From the NCBI RefSeq assembly GCF_022827545.1, contig NZ_CP094675.1, positions 1-38,978 of the forward strand: a DNA stretch of 38,978 nucleotides. The letters are read 5' to 3'. Positions 15,770 to 21,892 of the stretch are shown one piece after another. The DNA is from Hymenobacter tibetensis. Its GTDB lineage: Bacteria; Bacteroidota; Bacteroidia; Cytophagales; Hymenobacteraceae. The translations under genes and the position numbers were made by a program. The notes beneath the pieces are model-generated. The model was given only the letters and a program-made list of their open reading frames with translations, ran no database searches and had not been told where the DNA came from. Each line of letters opens with the position of its first letter. The stretch's first letter is position 1.

Positions 15770-16369
15770 TTAGCTAACAAGCGGCATGGTATCGAGCAGC
15801 ACCTTGCCAACTGTAGTAGCGGATATATTCAGCGCCGTAGCAATAGCCCGGTTGGAAATACCTGTTTCCTTCAGCCGCCTCACCTGCTCCACTAATTTCG
15901 CATCGACACCTGGTCGGCCCAACTTGGTGCCCTTTGCCACGGTCCTCGCCAGCCCGGCTTTGGTTCTCTCCCCCAAGCGCACCTGCTCCTGCTTAGCGAT
16001 GGTGGCCAAGATGCTGATGATGGCATCCTTAAACATGCCAGTGCTATCGAGGTATTGTTCGGTGTAGCTCTTAAACTGCACACCAGCTAAGGATAGCTTT
16101 TGTAAGTGGTTGAGGGTTTCTACTACTCCTTCCCGGCTGAAACGGTCGAGAGCCCAGAAAAGCACCACGTCGAAGCGACGTTGGTGAGCATCCTGAAAGA
16201 GGTGCTTGAACTGCGGCCGGTCAGCCTTACCCCCCGACTCGGTATCGAGGTACTCTTTACATATAGTATAGCCGAGCCGCTCGGCGAAGGCCCGCAGTTC
16301 ACGTAGCTGGTTTTCGTTGTCCTGGCCTTTGTCGCGGGTGCTCACACGGGCATAGATTGCAGCTGTCAC
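15770..16369 (-). CDS. Serine recombinase (resolvase family), last gene of the ImmA operon
   Basis: A 199-residue resolvase-type recombinase. It has AIYARVSTRDKGQDNENQ with nucleophile Ser10, then YLDTESGGKADRPQF, the catalytic FWALDRFSREG segment, helix E and a C-terminal helix-turn-helix (SNRAIATALNISATTVGKVL). The start is a GTG at 16369 that overlaps the stop of the 166-residue gene as GTGA, so translation is coupled. It therefore belongs to the same operon as the XRE/metallopeptidase gene, an uncommon setting that suggests its activity is controlled by that sensor. Its sites are unknown. Confidence 0.92.
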   Translation of the reverse strand: MTAAIYARVSTRDKGQDNENQLRELRAFAERLGYTICKEYLDTESGGKADRPQFKHLFQDAHQRRFDVVLFWALDRFSREGVVETLNHLQKLSLAGVQFKSYTEQYLDSTGMFKDAIISILATIAKQEQVRLGERTKAGLARTVAKGTKLGRPGVDAKLVEQVRRLKETGISNRAIATALNISATTVGKVLLDTMPLVS

Positions 16370-16866
16370 ACTTTCTTGGGTCTAGCCTTTTTAGATTTAT
16401 GGAAACCTGCGCTTTCGTTTAACTCCCATAAACTTATAGCTAGTTCAATACCTTCTCCCTCAGTAGCCGCCCAATCATCAACAATGTCAAAAATTTGTTT
16501 TGTGGCATCCTTAAAAGAAAACTTAGAATCCCGTGTATTAGAAGCTGCTTTTAGATATGTCTTCTTTTCTAAGAGGATGCTTGTTCTAATGTGCCCCTTT
16601 TTTACTCGCTTGATAATTACATTTTGTGCCTCATGCCACATTTTTTCAACAAGTCCAGGATTCTCTGAACTGTCAATCATAGACTCTTCCTCACTACTAA
16701 TAAAATCATCCTCCAAAGAATCAGAAGTCTTCTTAGGAAATTCTATTCTTGTTTGAAATTCCTTCTCCATCCGACGCTCGGCTTCTTGGAGATCTTCCAA
16801 CTCCTTTTGAAAAGCCTTACGCTTTCTATCTTGACTATCTTCAGGGGTTTCAAAAATGTCATTCAT
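16366..16866 (-). CDS. Charged partner protein (166 aa) of the XRE-ImmA operon
   Basis: The ATG at 16866 follows the stop of the XRE/metallopeptidase gene by 4 bases; an upstream start inside that gene is also possible. The N-terminal half is highly charged and likely coiled coil then disordered (KRKAFQKELEDLQEAERRME; a Glu/Ser-rich acidic stretch at about 50-70). The C-terminal half looks folded (MWHEAQNVIIKRVKKGHIRT, FKDATKQIFDIVDDWA) and ends in a Lys/Arg tail. I do not recognise the family. Being wedged between a putative protease and a recombinase, it could be a protease substrate, a recombinase regulator or an antitoxin-like factor. These are inferences. Confidence 0.75.
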   Translation of the reverse strand: MNDIFETPEDSQDRKRKAFQKELEDLQEAERRMEKEFQTRIEFPKKTSDSLEDDFISSEEESMIDSSENPGLVEKMWHEAQNVIIKRVKKGHIRTSILLEKKTYLKAASNTRDSKFSFKDATKQIFDIVDDWAATEGEGIELAISLWELNESAGFHKSKKARPKKV

Positions 16867-16870
16867 GCTA

Positions 16871-18088
16871 TTAAAAATTATAAACAGTTTCAACTTCTTT
16901 TAAATGCTCGTAGACACTATCCTCATCAAAAGGAGTTGTTCTAACAATTTTTACTGCCTTTTCTGGATTTCCGAATAGGTGTTGATACTTTGAATACACA
17001 TCATTATTATTGTTGTAATACCTCTCGTTATAACAATAAAAGTCATATATAATACTTGGATGCACTTGTATTTGCTCTGAGTATTTACGAACTGAAGCCG
17101 GCAAATCTATCCTAGAAGCTATAAAATCAAGTTTTGCCTTAGGGAGTAACCTATCACGTGCAAAACTATCTGCCATGTCCTCATTGAATAAGTCATTGGA
17201 AAGATTCGCCTCTCCAGACAAATGATATCTCCAAGCTTTCAATTCTTCGTAGTCATACAAAATATGATACAATTCATGTATTAGAGTAAACCATATTGTT
17301 GAATATTTTTGTTTAAAATCTGTAACCGTAATACATGGCTTATTATTTATAGCAAAGCTCGCCCCTTTAACTGCCGTATTAGATAAATATTTTTGCATAA
17401 TAACAGTCACTCCGACTTTATACAATGCTCGCAATACCATAACATAACCTGACTCCTCATTTAGAGTATAATATTTAATTTTAGGAATTAAAGCCAATAA
17501 TGCCTCTCTATCATATGGATTAGGATTATTTATTCGCTGAAATTGCGAAACAGCCGCTACAATCCACATTGTGCGCATTTCATCTTTACTTCTTTGCTTA
17601 GCCCTACTAAAAAGAGCAGCAGGTATATCTTTTCCGTATTGATATATACTTTCCAGCCCGAAGAAAGAAGTTATCTTTCTATCAATTTCTTTTATATCTG
17701 TTGTATTTTTAATAAAGCCAATCTTTTTAAGAGATGGCAGATTAAAATTCTTTAAAATAAAATTTGCCTTAGCAGCTAAATCAAGTTCCCCAACAAACTC
17801 AGGTTTCAGAGATGCTACAAAGACTTCAGCTATTTTATTGAACTGGATCCCTAGAAACTGACCTACTTTTAAAACTGAAAACAGATCTATTTTTTGAGTT
17901 TCTCCATCTATGAGTCTTGCCAATGTATTATTAGCAATGCCAACCATTTTCGAGAACTCATAGTCAGTGTTTATACCTAGCTCTTTTTTCTTTTGATCAA
18001 CAAGCTCCCTGAATGACGGAGTGTGATCAGATTCTATCATCCGGTGGATGGCGGACAGGAGGTCATCTCCAGAATTTATATTTTCCAT
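16871..18088 (-). CDS. XRE helix-turn-helix fused to ImmA/IrrE-type metallopeptidase
   Basis: A 405-residue fusion. An N-terminal XRE-type helix-turn-helix spans about 42-90 (YEFSKMVGIANNTLARLIDG). The C-terminal half carries the zinc-peptidase signature HELYH at 271-275 and a downstream Glu303 (NEDMADSFARDRLL), as in the ImmA/IrrE (COG2856) family. Family members cleave transcriptional repressors (ImmA on ImmR in ICEBs1; IrrE on DdrO in Deinococcus) after stress. Here sensor HTH and protease are in one chain. It is the first gene of a three-gene operon with a charged partner and a serine recombinase, in an AT-rich segment. It may both repress its own promoter and act as the stress-activated protease. 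Confidence 0.92.
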   Translation of the reverse strand: MENINSGDDLLSAIHRMIESDHTPSFRELVDQKKKELGINTDYEFSKMVGIANNTLARLIDGETQKIDLFSVLKVGQFLGIQFNKIAEVFVASLKPEFVGELDLAAKANFILKNFNLPSLKKIGFIKNTTDIKEIDRKITSFFGLESIYQYGKDIPAALFSRAKQRSKDEMRTMWIVAAVSQFQRINNPNPYDREALLALIPKIKYYTLNEESGYVMVLRALYKVGVTVIMQKYLSNTAVKGASFAINNKPCITVTDFKQKYSTIWFTLIHELYHILYDYEELKAWRYHLSGEANLSNDLFNEDMADSFARDRLLPKAKLDFIASRIDLPASVRKYSEQIQVHPSIIYDFYCYNERYYNNNNDVYSKYQHLFGNPEKAVKIVRTTPFDEDSVYEHLKEVETVYNF

Positions 18089-18147
18089 TTTTTTACCCTT
18101 ATTTCAGACTAAGTTAGACCTTTTTAACGCTTTTTTCCAAAAATGGA

Positions 18148-18155: not shown

Positions 18156-18397
18156 TTCGCTTATATCTTGTTTTATATATACAATACACATTGCTAATAC
18201 ATTGAGTTTCATGCTAATGCAGTTATCACTGATAAACAACAGCAACACCTGTGAAGTCAGAATCCAGCCGAGAGCAGAAATCACTGTCCATAAAAGGGTC
18301 CAAAAAAACAGCTTGACAAACGCCGTTTTTGGGGCCTTCAGTGGGGTACAAAAAAGTGCACGTAAAACGACCGATTTCTGGACACCCCTAGAGTAGG

Positions 18398-19732
18398 CTA
18401 TACCCCTGCCACCTGGCGGCTTAGTTTAGGAAATACGGCAATGAAGGTGGAGCCCCGACCCAACTCACTCTCGACCCGAATGCTGCCCCCAGCATTATCG
18501 AGAATCTTTTTCACCAGATACAAGCCTATGCCGGTGCCCTCGACATGGGTATGCAGGCGCTGAAACAAGCGAAACAACTTGCCTTGCTGCGTCGCACTTA
18601 AGCCCAACCCATTGTCCTGGACGCGCACCACGAGCCGGCCCGACTCCCGGTAGCTGTGCACCTGCACCACCGGCGCCCGGTCTGGGTGGCGATACTTGAA
18701 GGCATTACTGATTAAGTTCAGCAGCACCGAGTGCACGTGCTTGGGGGTAAACCACAGGGTGGGGTTGCCGGGCAACTCGAGCAGCAGTTGCCCCTGAGTG
18801 GCCGTTAACACGGGCGTTAGCTCTTGGCGAATATTTTCGAGTACGGTGGCGAGCTGCACGGACTCGTGCGGCGTCTTCGCCTCCAGGCTTCCGATACTAA
18901 AGTCGGCCAGTTGATCGAGCGTGTGGCGAAACCGCGTCATCGACTCCTGCATCATGCTCAGAATGGGTTCCACTTGGCCCACGTGCCGGGCTTCAGGGGG
19001 CAGTTGATCGGTGAGCGCTTGGACGAGTCCCTGCAAGTTGGAAATGGGCAGGCGCAAGTCATGGGAGGCCGCGTAGACAAACGTGTCCAGCTCGGTGTTG
19101 ACCTGTCCTAGATGGGAGTTGGCATTCAGCAGTTCATCGTTAGTGACACGCAACTCTTCGTTTGAAGCAGCCAAGTCCTCGTTGGCACGCTCCAACTTGG
19201 AGGCCGTTTGTTGCACCTGAACTTCGAGGTGATGCCGTTCGGCAATGTCCTCCAGCACGGTATAGCCGAGTTCGCCTTCTTCGTCAGGAAACAGCACCGA
19301 AGTAACGCGGCACCAGAGCGGCGTACCATCCACGCGTACCAGGCACGTGTCGAGGGCAAACCAGGGCAGGTGATGCGCCCACAAGCTTTCTTGCAGACGC
19401 GTCCAGTCGGCTTCGTAATCCGGGTGGGCAAACTCGATGATGCGGTGGCCTAGCAGGTCCAGCGGTGAGGTCAGGCCGAGCATGGCGGCTATGGCCGTGT
19501 TGGCTTGCCGAATTATGAGGTTGGCATCAATGATTTTGTGGCCCAGCGGCGAGTGCTCGAAGACGGTGTGGAAGCGCACTTGATATTGCCGCGCGCGCTC
19601 GGCCTGCGCCTGCTGCTGCTCGGCGAGGCGGGCTTGGCGGTCCGCCTCGGCACGCACGCGCGCTATTTCCGCGCGTAGGGCAATGTTTTCCGCTTCTAGG
19701 GCGCGGTACTCAGCAAGAGACGGATAAGCCAT
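18398..19732 (-). CDS. PAS-domain sensor histidine kinase (444 aa)
   Basis: The start chosen is the ATG at 19732 (MAYPSLAEYRALEAEN); the upstream extension has no kinase-like sequence. Residues 5-50 form a coiled coil, followed by a PAS domain (about 50-170), a second helical stretch with repeated ELRVTNDELLNANSHL-like wording, a HisKA helix with His224 in AASHDLRLP, and a HATPase domain with an N-box (NLISNAFKY), G1 (DNGLGLS) and G2 (GTGIGLYLVKKI). It is soluble. The PAS region is very similar to that of the kinase at 1-1193, whereas the FVYAASHDL helix and catalytic domain resemble the large kinase at 22347-25553. It looks like a mosaic of two local families. The partner is unknown. Confidence 0.93.
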   Translation of the reverse strand: MAYPSLAEYRALEAENIALRAEIARVRAEADRQARLAEQQQAQAERARQYQVRFHTVFEHSPLGHKIIDANLIIRQANTAIAAMLGLTSPLDLLGHRIIEFAHPDYEADWTRLQESLWAHHLPWFALDTCLVRVDGTPLWCRVTSVLFPDEEGELGYTVLEDIAERHHLEVQVQQTASKLERANEDLAASNEELRVTNDELLNANSHLGQVNTELDTFVYAASHDLRLPISNLQGLVQALTDQLPPEARHVGQVEPILSMMQESMTRFRHTLDQLADFSIGSLEAKTPHESVQLATVLENIRQELTPVLTATQGQLLLELPGNPTLWFTPKHVHSVLLNLISNAFKYRHPDRAPVVQVHSYRESGRLVVRVQDNGLGLSATQQGKLFRLFQRLHTHVEGTGIGLYLVKKILDNAGGSIRVESELGRGSTFIAVFPKLSRQVAGV

Positions 19733-19878
19733 GTAGGAGCCGAATAAAGGGGGCTCCAATAAACACATAATAATAGTCTTACCTTCAACGCACAACGCCG
19801 CTTTTCTGCCGTTTACTCGCCTATAGAAGAGCTTATTCCCGCACCAGATGCTCTTTCCTGCGCCCAACGGCGCGCGCT

Positions 19879-20268
19879 GTGGACCAGGCGCGCGCCAATA
19901 TGGCGGCACGCGGTGTTGTGCAGCACGTCCGCGCTTACGCGCTGTGGGAGCAGTACGTGGCCGGCACCATCACCCACCCGCAGCTTCTCGACATTTTGGA
20001 CCAGGAAAAAGGCAGAGACGAGGAGAGCCAGAATCTAGCGATCAACGGACACCTGACTCTGCTTTGCCCGGTCGCCTATTGGAATACCCAGCTAAAGAAT
20101 CGAGCGTTTCTAAACAGCCTATTTGACGCTGTTCGCACCTATGCGGGAGTACAGTTCTCAGCTGCAACTTGCCACGATGCAGCTGAGAACTGTACTCCCG
20201 CTCGCTGGTGCTCTATTTCCTTATTGCTTTGCCAGCCGCCACTTTCTATCATAGCAACCGCGATATAG
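19879..20268 (+). CDS. Doubtful small gene interrupted by a hairpin
   Basis: The first 70 codons after a GTG at 19879 (or an ATG at 19900) look like protein: ARANMAARGVVQHVRAYALW, then THPQLLDILDQEKGRD. The last 45 codons run through a perfect 24-bp inverted repeat and then lose protein-like character. Either the gene is truncated by insertion of the hairpin element or the frame is chance. I do not recognise the family. Confidence 0.35.
   Translation: MDQARANMAARGVVQHVRAYALWEQYVAGTITHPQLLDILDQEKGRDEESQNLAINGHLTLLCPVAYWNTQLKNRAFLNSLFDAVRTYAGVQFSAATCHDAAENCTPARWCSISLLLCQPPLSIIATAI
20143..20201. repeat. Perfect 24-bp inverted repeat
   Basis: Arms 20143-20166 and 20178-20201 are exact reverse complements around an 11-base loop. 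No T-run follows either side. See the similar giant hairpins at 4527 and 13412. Confidence 0.85.
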
Positions 20269-20659
20269 GCCAGTGCTCTCGTTGTCGTCGAGGCCTGCCC
20301 ACGTACTATTGGGCACGAGTAATTCCTGGTAAAATGACTCCACCGATTGACTTGGCTGCGACCGACTACGGACGAAGGGCATGGCAGGTCTTTTTAGATA
20401 AGGACTTCGTCGGCTATCATATGCGGATAGGCAAGTAACCTACTGAAGCTGCAGCAACTGATCGTGTACTGAGGGCCTGCCTGCCCTGCCAAAACGGTCC
20501 AGAATCGCAGGGTTTCTGGGCCGTTTATAGTAGACGTTTAATGGATGGTGGCCCATAAAAAGCTACCCTTTCGAGCTTATGAAACGCAGTTGCGAGGCCA
20601 TTGCGTCAGCTGGTATTCTACCCGTTTAAGCCCAAGGATGAACCACCTGCCCTATCCTA
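20269..20659. other. Gap with one hairpin and no sure gene
   Basis: A possible 34-codon frame (ATG 20334 to 20438, MTPPIDLAATDYGRRAWQVF) is too short to judge. A 13-bp stem with one G-T pair at 20492-20504/20514-20526 (AAACGG arm, CCGTTT arm) could be a terminator for it. Confidence 0.3.
20492..20526 (+). terminator. Hairpin terminator candidate
   Basis: Arms AAACGGTCCAGAA and TTCTGGGCCGTTT pair over 13 bp around a 9-base loop, with A-rich and T-rich outer ends. It lies between the doubtful small frame and the convergent Fic gene. Confidence 0.5.
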
Positions 20660-21892
20660 TCACACCTGGAGCATGTCGATTTCTTTGCCGGCGGGATACA
20701 GCCCGGGGAAAAGTGCGGGCGCTAGCTTAATGGGATACGCGGCCCGATAGGGGGCTAGGTGATCGGTGGTATCGGTAGCCAACAAGCCGGCCTGCAGGAG
20801 TTGCGTCGCCAGTGCTTTCGCCGTTTTATCCGATAGTCCGGTTAACCGCTCTACCTCGCGGCGAGCAATACTGCCTTTCAGAAACACGGCCTCTAGCACA
20901 TAATACGTTTCCGGCCGCCACTTGCGCTTCAGGCGCATGAGTTGCACCAACCCGTGCAAGCGGCTGAGCATCTCGTCAATCGCCAGCCCGCGGGTCATAT
21001 AGGTGATCTGGTCCAGCGCTACTTCCAGAAAGAACCGGCAAAAGGTCGCCAGTTGCCGCTCCGACAAGTTGCCCCGGCCATCATAGTCGCTCTCACGCCG
21101 GGCATCGGCTGCGGCTAGGGCGCGCTTATAGGCGGTTTCCGCGCGAGCCAGTCCTCTCGACATCGACCATAACCCTTCGGCGTCCAAGCCTTCTACTCGA
21201 AAGGCGGCATCGCTGAACAGGCGTGTTACCCGACCGTTGCCGTCCAAGAACGGATGTACCCAGGCGAGGCGGTGGTGGGCAGCGGCAATCTGAACCACCC
21301 GCGCGAGCCGGTCATGCGCATAACGGGGCTGATAGCCATCTTCTAAGCGCCGCATAAAGGCGGGCAGCGCGTCCGCGGCGGGCGCGATATGCTGCCCGAC
21401 CTGCACTTCGCTCGTACGAAACACACCGGGCAGTACAGGCAGACGGGTCCCTTCCACCGTGGTCGTCCAACGAAACTCGTCGGGCAGGTAGGCATAAAAT
21501 GAGTGATGCAGGGCCCGCCAAAAGGCTTCGGTATAGGGATTGCTTTCGGCTTGCGCCAGCAATTCGGGTAGGCGAGCGTGTACGGCGATATGAGCTTTGG
21601 CTTCCAGTTGCAACGACCGGTTACGGCTGTCGGTGGAGTACTCCTCCTGCAGAGCGCGGGCAATGTCCAAGGGATGCGTATCGTGTCCCTCGATCAGGTT
21701 GGAGTAATAGCTATTAGCCGGGCGCAGAAAGGTGGCGATAGCGGCCGCTGTAAGCGGATGCAGGCTACCCGAAAGGCGCGCAGCGGCCTCGACAATGCGT
21801 AAGGCCAACTCCTGCAGGTCAGCAGGCAACGGACTGAGTTTGAGCGGCGCCATCGCGGACGCCTCCCGGTAGAGAGGCACAGGAGTATTCAC
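20660..21892 (-). CDS. Fic-domain adenylyltransferase with winged-helix tail
   Basis: A 410-residue Fic protein, expected to transfer AMP (or a related nucleotide) from ATP to a hydroxyl of a target protein. The catalytic motif HPFLDGNGRVTR starts at His213. An inhibitory helix motif is present upstream (SNLIEG, Ser64 to Glu68), as in class II Fic proteins that keep themselves off with the Glu. The N-terminal Fic_N-like part covers about 20-110, and the C-terminus (about 320-385) is a winged-helix domain (RREVERLTGLSDKTAKALAT). It stands alone with no small antitoxin gene nearby. Proteins of this architecture are widespread in Bacteroidota; the target is unknown. Confidence 0.94.
   Translation of the reverse strand: MNTPVPLYREASAMAPLKLSPLPADLQELALRIVEAAARLSGSLHPLTAAAIATFLRPANSYYSNLIEGHDTHPLDIARALQEEYSTDSRNRSLQLEAKAHIAVHARLPELLAQAESNPYTEAFWRALHHSFYAYLPDEFRWTTTVEGTRLPVLPGVFRTSEVQVGQHIAPAADALPAFMRRLEDGYQPRYAHDRLARVVQIAAAHHRLAWVHPFLDGNGRVTRLFSDAAFRVEGLDAEGLWSMSRGLARAETAYKRALAAADARRESDYDGRGNLSERQLATFCRFFLEVALDQITYMTRGLAIDEMLSRLHGLVQLMRLKRKWRPETYYVLEAVFLKGSIARREVERLTGLSDKTAKALATQLLQAGLLATDTTDHLAPYRAAYPIKLAPALFPGLYPAGKEIDMLQV

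Follow-up and report, generated by a model that had tools for sequence, protein, structure and literature searches.

A conserved XRE-ImmA protease and partner gene pair of Bacteroidota, found in front of a serine recombinase on a probable plasmid of Hymenobacter tibetensis

Do three tightly packed genes of Hymenobacter tibetensis, encoding an XRE-ImmA fusion protein, a charged protein and a serine recombinase, form one system, or have they been brought together from different sources? The window, that is, the whole stretch of DNA analysed in this study, comprises 38,978 bases and is a complete contig (NZ_CP094675.1) of a seven-contig, 6.33-Mb genome; since it is a separate, whole unit of that genome, it is probably a plasmid. 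All three genes lie on the minus strand: the XRE-ImmA fusion gene (18088..16871, start codon ATG, 405 amino acids, with a HELYH motif), the middle or partner gene (16866..16366, ATG, 166 amino acids, 39% of them charged) and a serine recombinase gene of the resolvase/invertase type (16369..15770, GTG, 199 amino acids; Pfam Resolvase, E-value 5.5e-33). The four-base gap between the first two genes (16867-16870) and the GTGA overlap between the last two (16366-16369), on which the preliminary description of this locus had relied, agree with the coordinates. That description placed all three genes in AT-rich DNA, which holds for the first two (33.7% and 37.7% G+C) but not for the recombinase gene (55.0%), whose composition is that of the whole contig (54.9%). 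Because the shift in G+C occurs at the recombinase, the pair and the recombinase probably differ in origin. We observed that the protease and its partner recur together as a conserved two-gene unit, judging from their sequences and gene order in related genomes, and that the three genes seem to have been combined recently rather than to form a single ancient machine.

Pairing of the XRE-ImmA protease with two partner families

A single-sequence search with the XRE-ImmA protein disclosed 316 relatives, itself counted, and residues H271, E272, H275, H289 and E303 were invariant across the family. The protein matches Peptidase_M78 and HTH_26 of Pfam, both under the Pfam cut-off, and among the PADLOC models it is matched by PD-Lambda-2_B over residues 107-365 (E-value 1.8e-21) and by RmrA (E-value 2.2e-5). 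Downstream of the protease relatives, almost every locus encodes a charged protein, roughly 150-235 amino acids long, whose gene is separated from the protease gene by a median of 7.5 nucleotides and by 30 nucleotides or fewer in 101 of 104 loci. A partner follows the XRE-ImmA gene in 128 of 132 loci, 108 of them with a member of a family here called A and 20 with a member of family B, in a count that takes in the window, duplicate loci, L056, where the match is weak and lies at the end of a contig, and L115, whose partner is interrupted. By the yardstick of the preliminary description, homologues found mostly apart, the recombinase gene stands apart and the first two genes do not.

The association is equally visible from the side of the partner. 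In a search of 390 genomes from the order, 25 places were found for the protease and 16 for family A; 15 of the latter adjoin an XRE-ImmA place, and the sixteenth is a pseudogene without a detectable protease. When the partner label (A or B) is mapped on a tree of 111 proteases, it switches only twice, as against a mean of 17 for shuffled labels; rows of this tree default to A unless set to B, including L121, for which no partner was found, and the last loci were labelled visually. Duplicate loci were removed for this tree, as they were for the operator count and the recombinase abutment count given below. The nearest relative examined, L129, carries a protease 65% identical to that of the window and a middle gene closely like the window's, and no recombinase stands behind its pair within the stretch examined.

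The 166-residue protein found nothing except itself in single-sequence searches, and it might have been taken for an orphan. Weak plasmid matches of this protein beside protease matches led to the profile that placed it. An all-against-all comparison of 104 downstream proteins separated family A (93 members) from family B (11 members), and the window's partner scored 33.6 bits against a model of family A from which it had been left out, and 2,000 shuffled versions reached 9.5 bits at most. By this profile comparison the window's partner is a divergent member of family A, and its status as an orphan was rejected. Its structure model is all-helical, with six helices and a mean predicted local distance difference test (pLDDT) score of 77.4. 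No Pfam family was matched in 52 family-A members, no PADLOC model matched the four partners scanned (three from A, one from B), and family A had no match among solved structures. Family B corresponds to the P63C domain in 10 of the 10 members scanned, and joining A and B into one family was rejected on an hhalign probability of 0.2%. The loci in which a P63C-domain protein replaces the family-A partner behind XRE-ImmA are L016-L021, L023, L024, L029, L120 and L122.

Operator, transposons and neighbours of the pair

The pair carries its own putative operator, an 18-bp palindrome with a four-base centre that lies within 150 bases before the protease gene. Its 7-bp arms are perfect in 50 of 117 non-redundant upstream stretches, against 2 of 117 coding controls. 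A second operator occurs near the start of the gene in 26 of 97 loci with at least 6/7 arm pairs, spaced 52-53 bp from the first in 21 of the 26, and L022 has a further copy just within the protease gene; elsewhere in the loci stretches examined no other copy of the core with at most one mismatch was found. In the window the operator core TCCATTTTTGGA occupies 18136..18147 on the minus strand, the surrounding palindrome pairing at 6 of 7 arm positions, and this exact core has no further copy in the 6.33-Mb genome. The core of L129, TTCCATTTTTGGAA, lies at the same distance from its gene as that of the window. A degenerate second operator may be present at the window's start codon (18083..18096, minus strand), with 3 of 14 positions mismatched and with 55 of 5,000 shuffles equally good. 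These arrangements fit an XRE-ImmA protein that would act as a self-repressor with a narrow target.

The motif TAnnTTTG was detected 12-45 nucleotides downstream of the operator centre in 40 of 79 upstream stretches, compared with 4 of 79 after one shuffle, and upstream of the centre in 4 of 79. Its probable counterpart in the window is TAACTTAG at 18116-18109, and with TTTTTG (18143-18138) inside the operator, 21 bp away, it would make up a probable promoter at 18109..18143 on the minus strand. The box TAGCTTTG, to which the preliminary description had drawn attention, is indeed present at 18155-18148; as the main promoter it was set aside, since the conserved TAnnTTTG of the relatives sits downstream of the operator centre, and it is probably not the conserved promoter.

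The mobility of the pair is evident from three complete IS1595-type transposons with matching ends and exact 8-bp duplications, which hold the pair inside: L043:2881-5905 (3,025 bp), L046:2912-5865 (2,954 bp) and L051:1175-6415 (5,241 bp). The first two consist of a transposase and the pair, with no space for another sizeable gene, and the third has a RadC-type gene behind the pair as well. Of a fourth element, Spirosoma luteum harbors the left 3.6 kb twice, and the right end lies past both contigs. IS1595-type ends were sought around the window's pair and were not found there. A few other pair loci have tyrosine integrases or a resolvase in front; in L020 a resolvase different from the window's recombinase lies 88 bp before the pair, and three more loci show an opposite-strand resolvase within 2 kb.

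Close same-strand third genes were noticed behind the pair in 44 of 105 loci, a count that includes the window and from which pieces and pseudogenes were removed. Dropping duplicates and three spurious open reading frames (ORFs) left 36 such genes, of which 31 were aligned and scanned with PADLOC as a set. Defence-type genes made up 13 of these 31 (10 by Pfam, and L089, L108 and L110 judged similar by eye), which is not an unbiased rate, as 15 of the 31 were scanned individually with Pfam and the first ten were picked partly for a defence-like look. The third genes include HsdM, YhcG, an OLD-type ATPase, a KAP NTPase, AbiTii, TIR, AbiU2-HEPN, a DNA methylase, type ISP and ApeA, and the scanned genes of L051, L066, L087, L097 and L098 were left uncounted as defence. 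PADLOC families matched by the 31 third genes numbered 229, a figure inflated by a few ATPases matching many models, against 28 for a control set of 39 of the 46 other neighbours, where among the matches listed each PADLOC family had one member. On the protease tree the defence-type third genes required 11 changes for 14 labelled rows, including L098, labelled SIR2-like by eye and lacking a Pfam or PADLOC match, and the defence-type neighbours therefore came and went. A separate observation concerns L117:2454-6375, where the pair is flanked by a SIR2-TIR gene and a TIR gene in a Thoeris-like neighbourhood. Three of the four plasmid records examined from other phyla (L125, L126 and L127) have a RelE/ParE-type toxin gene followed by a distant relative of XRE-ImmA, with a Fic or helicase gene next in two of them.

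The recombinase family, its cargo and the site upstream

Searched for in 204 genomes of the family Hymenobacteraceae, the recombinase family was found in 77 of them, at 123 places in all, and a single one of these places, that of the window, lies within 2 kb of a protease place. On this count and on the recombinase-free L129, the view of the recombinase as a third conserved gene was rejected; on the available sequences it is not part of the conserved pair, and a dedicated three-gene system is not supported. Its relatives on Hymenobacter plasmids stand mostly behind unrelated genes. We examined 38 loci, namely 30 of the 123 places and eight plasmid records (the window at 15770-16369, L184-L212 and L148-L155), of which 35 were distinct, and took as control a second resolvase family encoded in the window, which was looked for in those genomes too. 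An abutting ORF was defined as one of at least 60 amino acids ending between 12 nucleotides inside and 40 nucleotides before the recombinase start codon. Abutting same-strand upstream ORFs occurred in 24 of 35 loci versus 4 of 28 control loci (Fisher p 2.8e-5), with an exact 4-nucleotide overlap in 11 of 35 versus 0 of 28 (Fisher p 7e-4), and those of the recombinase family fall into 21 families. Five of ten cargo proteins scanned with Pfam have a TRADD-N-associated, Shedu, AIPR, HEPN or trypsin-like domain, and these domains are often linked with defence. On G060:C6 a recombinase 90% identical to that of the window, with patches of similar DNA behind it and a site of its own in front, has a different cargo, a 244-residue protein with a TRADD-N-associated membrane domain.

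In front of the cargo lies a res-like site, about 97 bp long and palindromic in part. In the window it occupies 18287..18383 on the minus strand (nhmmer 43.0 bits, E-value 1e-12, with its own rows left out), and the order is site, pair and recombinase. The site model matched 32 of the 38 recombinase loci, and 31 of the 38 at 25 bits or more, three loci being counted twice. In a comparison by locus type the site was present in 24 of 29 recombinase-family loci, with 27 sites of which 26 lie upstream of the recombinase, in 1 of 30 control loci and in none of the 16 protease loci from Hymenobacteraceae genomes. When the window's site was compared with the 204 genomes by blastn, eight places outside the window turned up in five genomes, several of them short; one precedes the G060:C6 recombinase and two lie on G060:C2. 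The wider claim for the site rests on the profile and not on blastn. In L186, L202, L204 and L206 the site stands directly before the recombinase with no cargo ORF, and some of these may be broken, as in L186, L204 and L206 the recombinase match crosses a stop. At a few loci the longest ORF call enters the site, leaving the true cargo start uncertain. No support was obtained for a hairpin formed by the folded single strand of the site (z -0.85).

Tn3 elements have a resolvase with its own res site upstream, and the present layout resembles theirs in its resolvase-type serine recombinase and upstream palindromic, multi-part site; it differs in that unrelated cargo lies between site and recombinase in most loci examined, often with the 4-nucleotide overlap. 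Examples of the site are found in the window, L186, L187, L252, L256 and L257, and at some loci the site is present two or three times, the copies being separated by ORFs. At 20481-20539 the window gave a further, weak match (15.7 bits) to the site model. In front of the pair and on the same strand, the window has a PAS histidine kinase gene identified by Pfam (19909..18398), and farther along it a gene for a Fic-domain protein of 410 amino acids (20660-21892, minus strand; PADLOC SoFic, E-value 1.3e-28).

A self-contained pair as probable cargo, and competing explanations

In the CapH-CapP, DdrO-IrrE and ImmR-ImmA systems, repressor and protease are separate proteins; the present locus is like them in having both activities, a repressor and an ImmA-type protease, but differs in that these are fused and accompanied by an unrelated partner gene. 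RosmerTA combines the antitoxin RmrA, which has an ImmA and often a helix-turn-helix (HTH) domain, with varied RmrT toxins (PMC10440598). The pair resembles it in joining XRE and ImmA in one protein, in its lineage-varying small partner and in its defence neighbourhood; the HTH and protease protein, with its HELYH motif, invariant residues and RmrA match, and the adjacent partner gene in the operon are also as in RosmerTA. It differs in that the four scanned partners match no PADLOC family and hence no RmrT, an RmrT absent from the collection being possible. PD-lambda-2 consists of a HigB-like A, an Xre-peptidase B and a P4 antitoxin-like C, and its B protein is toxic alone and rescued by A (PMC9519451). 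The XRE-ImmA protein matches the model of this B component, but the gene before the window's pair encodes the PAS histidine kinase and not a HigB-like toxin, and the partner, which has no PADLOC match, gives no sign of being the P4 antitoxin-like third gene. Since the HTH-peptidase protein of PD-lambda-2 is itself toxic, either gene of the pair could be the toxin. Neither the pair nor the recombinase-cargo layout was found described in the open literature, as far as its accessible text goes, and the pair may be contained in the supplementary node lists of PMC10440598.

With moderate confidence, we favour the explanation that the pair is a self-contained, self-repressed toxin-antitoxin or defence unit of ImmA type, carried here as cargo of a recombinase unit. 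As a part of that explanation, and with the same moderate confidence, the pair would be a mobile unit of two genes, distributed among Bacteroidota and a few neighbouring groups. From the palindromes we infer that the XRE part may bind the operator and repress the operon. The partner, bound or cut by the protease, may be an effector triggered by stress or phage, or may restrain the protease. The recombinase would come last in a second mobile unit, composed of a res-like site, one or more cargo genes and the serine recombinase, and may act on the site; on this plasmid the pair would be its cargo. IS1595-type carriage was seen in L043, L046 and L051 and not in the window.

Several observations weigh against this explanation. 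Four of the 132 protease loci are without a detected partner (L027, L028 at a contig end, L031 and L121), and toxicity is a guess because the partner has no match to a Pfam or PADLOC family or to a solved structure. The window's partner is without part of a loop conserved in the other family-A members, and to judge from this loss it could be impaired. The site model was trained on recombinase-family loci and so favours them; 7 of the 38 recombinase loci score below 25 bits, including L199 with AIPR cargo and L191 with trypsin-like cargo, at both of which the nhmmer model detected no site, and the site also occurs in one of six stretches around other resolvase-like places of the window's own genome. 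Second and third site copies lie upstream in some loci and two site places on G060:C2 lie far from its recombinase, so that the sites possibly form arrays or belong to a wider dispersed repeat. Moreover, 61 of the 105 pair loci lack a close same-strand third gene.

This last count bears equally on another explanation, which we consider possible and yet somewhat unlikely: that the pair is mainly a regulator, its fused repressor-protease controlling a third gene that varies between loci and is often a defence effector, in the manner of CapH-CapP in CBASS. The many defence types among the same-strand third genes speak for such a role, and so does CapP, which is activated by single-stranded DNA and cuts CapH (PMC10904395); it is opposed, besides the loci without a third gene, by the two complete transposons made up of transposase and pair and by the restriction of operator copies to the surroundings of the pair's own start. 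Fairly unlikely, in our estimation, is a pair that serves purely for addiction, as a toxin-antitoxin unit of plasmid or element maintenance without a defence role. Two genes with their own operator, carried on plasmids and in transposons, would suit it, and Xre-COG2856 toxin-antitoxin units were predicted by Makarova et al. 2009 (PMC2701414), but the repeated defence-gene neighbourhood and the defence-like fellow cargo of the recombinase argue for more than maintenance.

Two further explanations give the recombinase a larger part. The preliminary description proposed that a stress-sensing protease cleaves the partner, or else its own HTH part, and thereby turns on the recombinase, giving a protease-gated DNA rearrangement. 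The common orientation of operator, pair and recombinase, with the short gap and the overlap, agrees with this, as the operator precedes all three genes and its release could therefore also raise the recombinase in this plasmid; a precedent exists in ICEBs1, where the action of ImmA on the repressor ImmR allows expression of the element (PMC2701414 and PMC10440598). Against it stand the single recombinase place out of 123 beside the pair, the nearest relative without a recombinase, the difference in base composition and the many unrelated genes that the recombinase family trails. Protease-gated recombination is accordingly not a conserved unit as far as these genomes indicate, and we regard the model as very unlikely. 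More tentatively than the favoured explanation, and as a somewhat unlikely reading, one may picture in Hymenobacter and its kin a gene-collecting serine recombinase whose slot is bounded by its own site and its start codon. Unrelated, often defence-type genes would be exchanged in this slot somewhat in the manner of an integron, many of them coupled to the recombinase by overlapping stop and start codons. The pair, bringing its own repressor and protease, would then place the collector under stress control.

Returning to the self-contained pair, a charged protein that had seemed an orphan can now be placed in a partner family that accompanies an ImmA-type repressor-protease throughout Bacteroidota, and the two genes constitute a testable candidate for a defence or toxin-antitoxin system. 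If the recombinase acts at the conserved site in front of its unrelated, partly defence-like cargo, bacteria would have in it a new way of exchanging defence genes.

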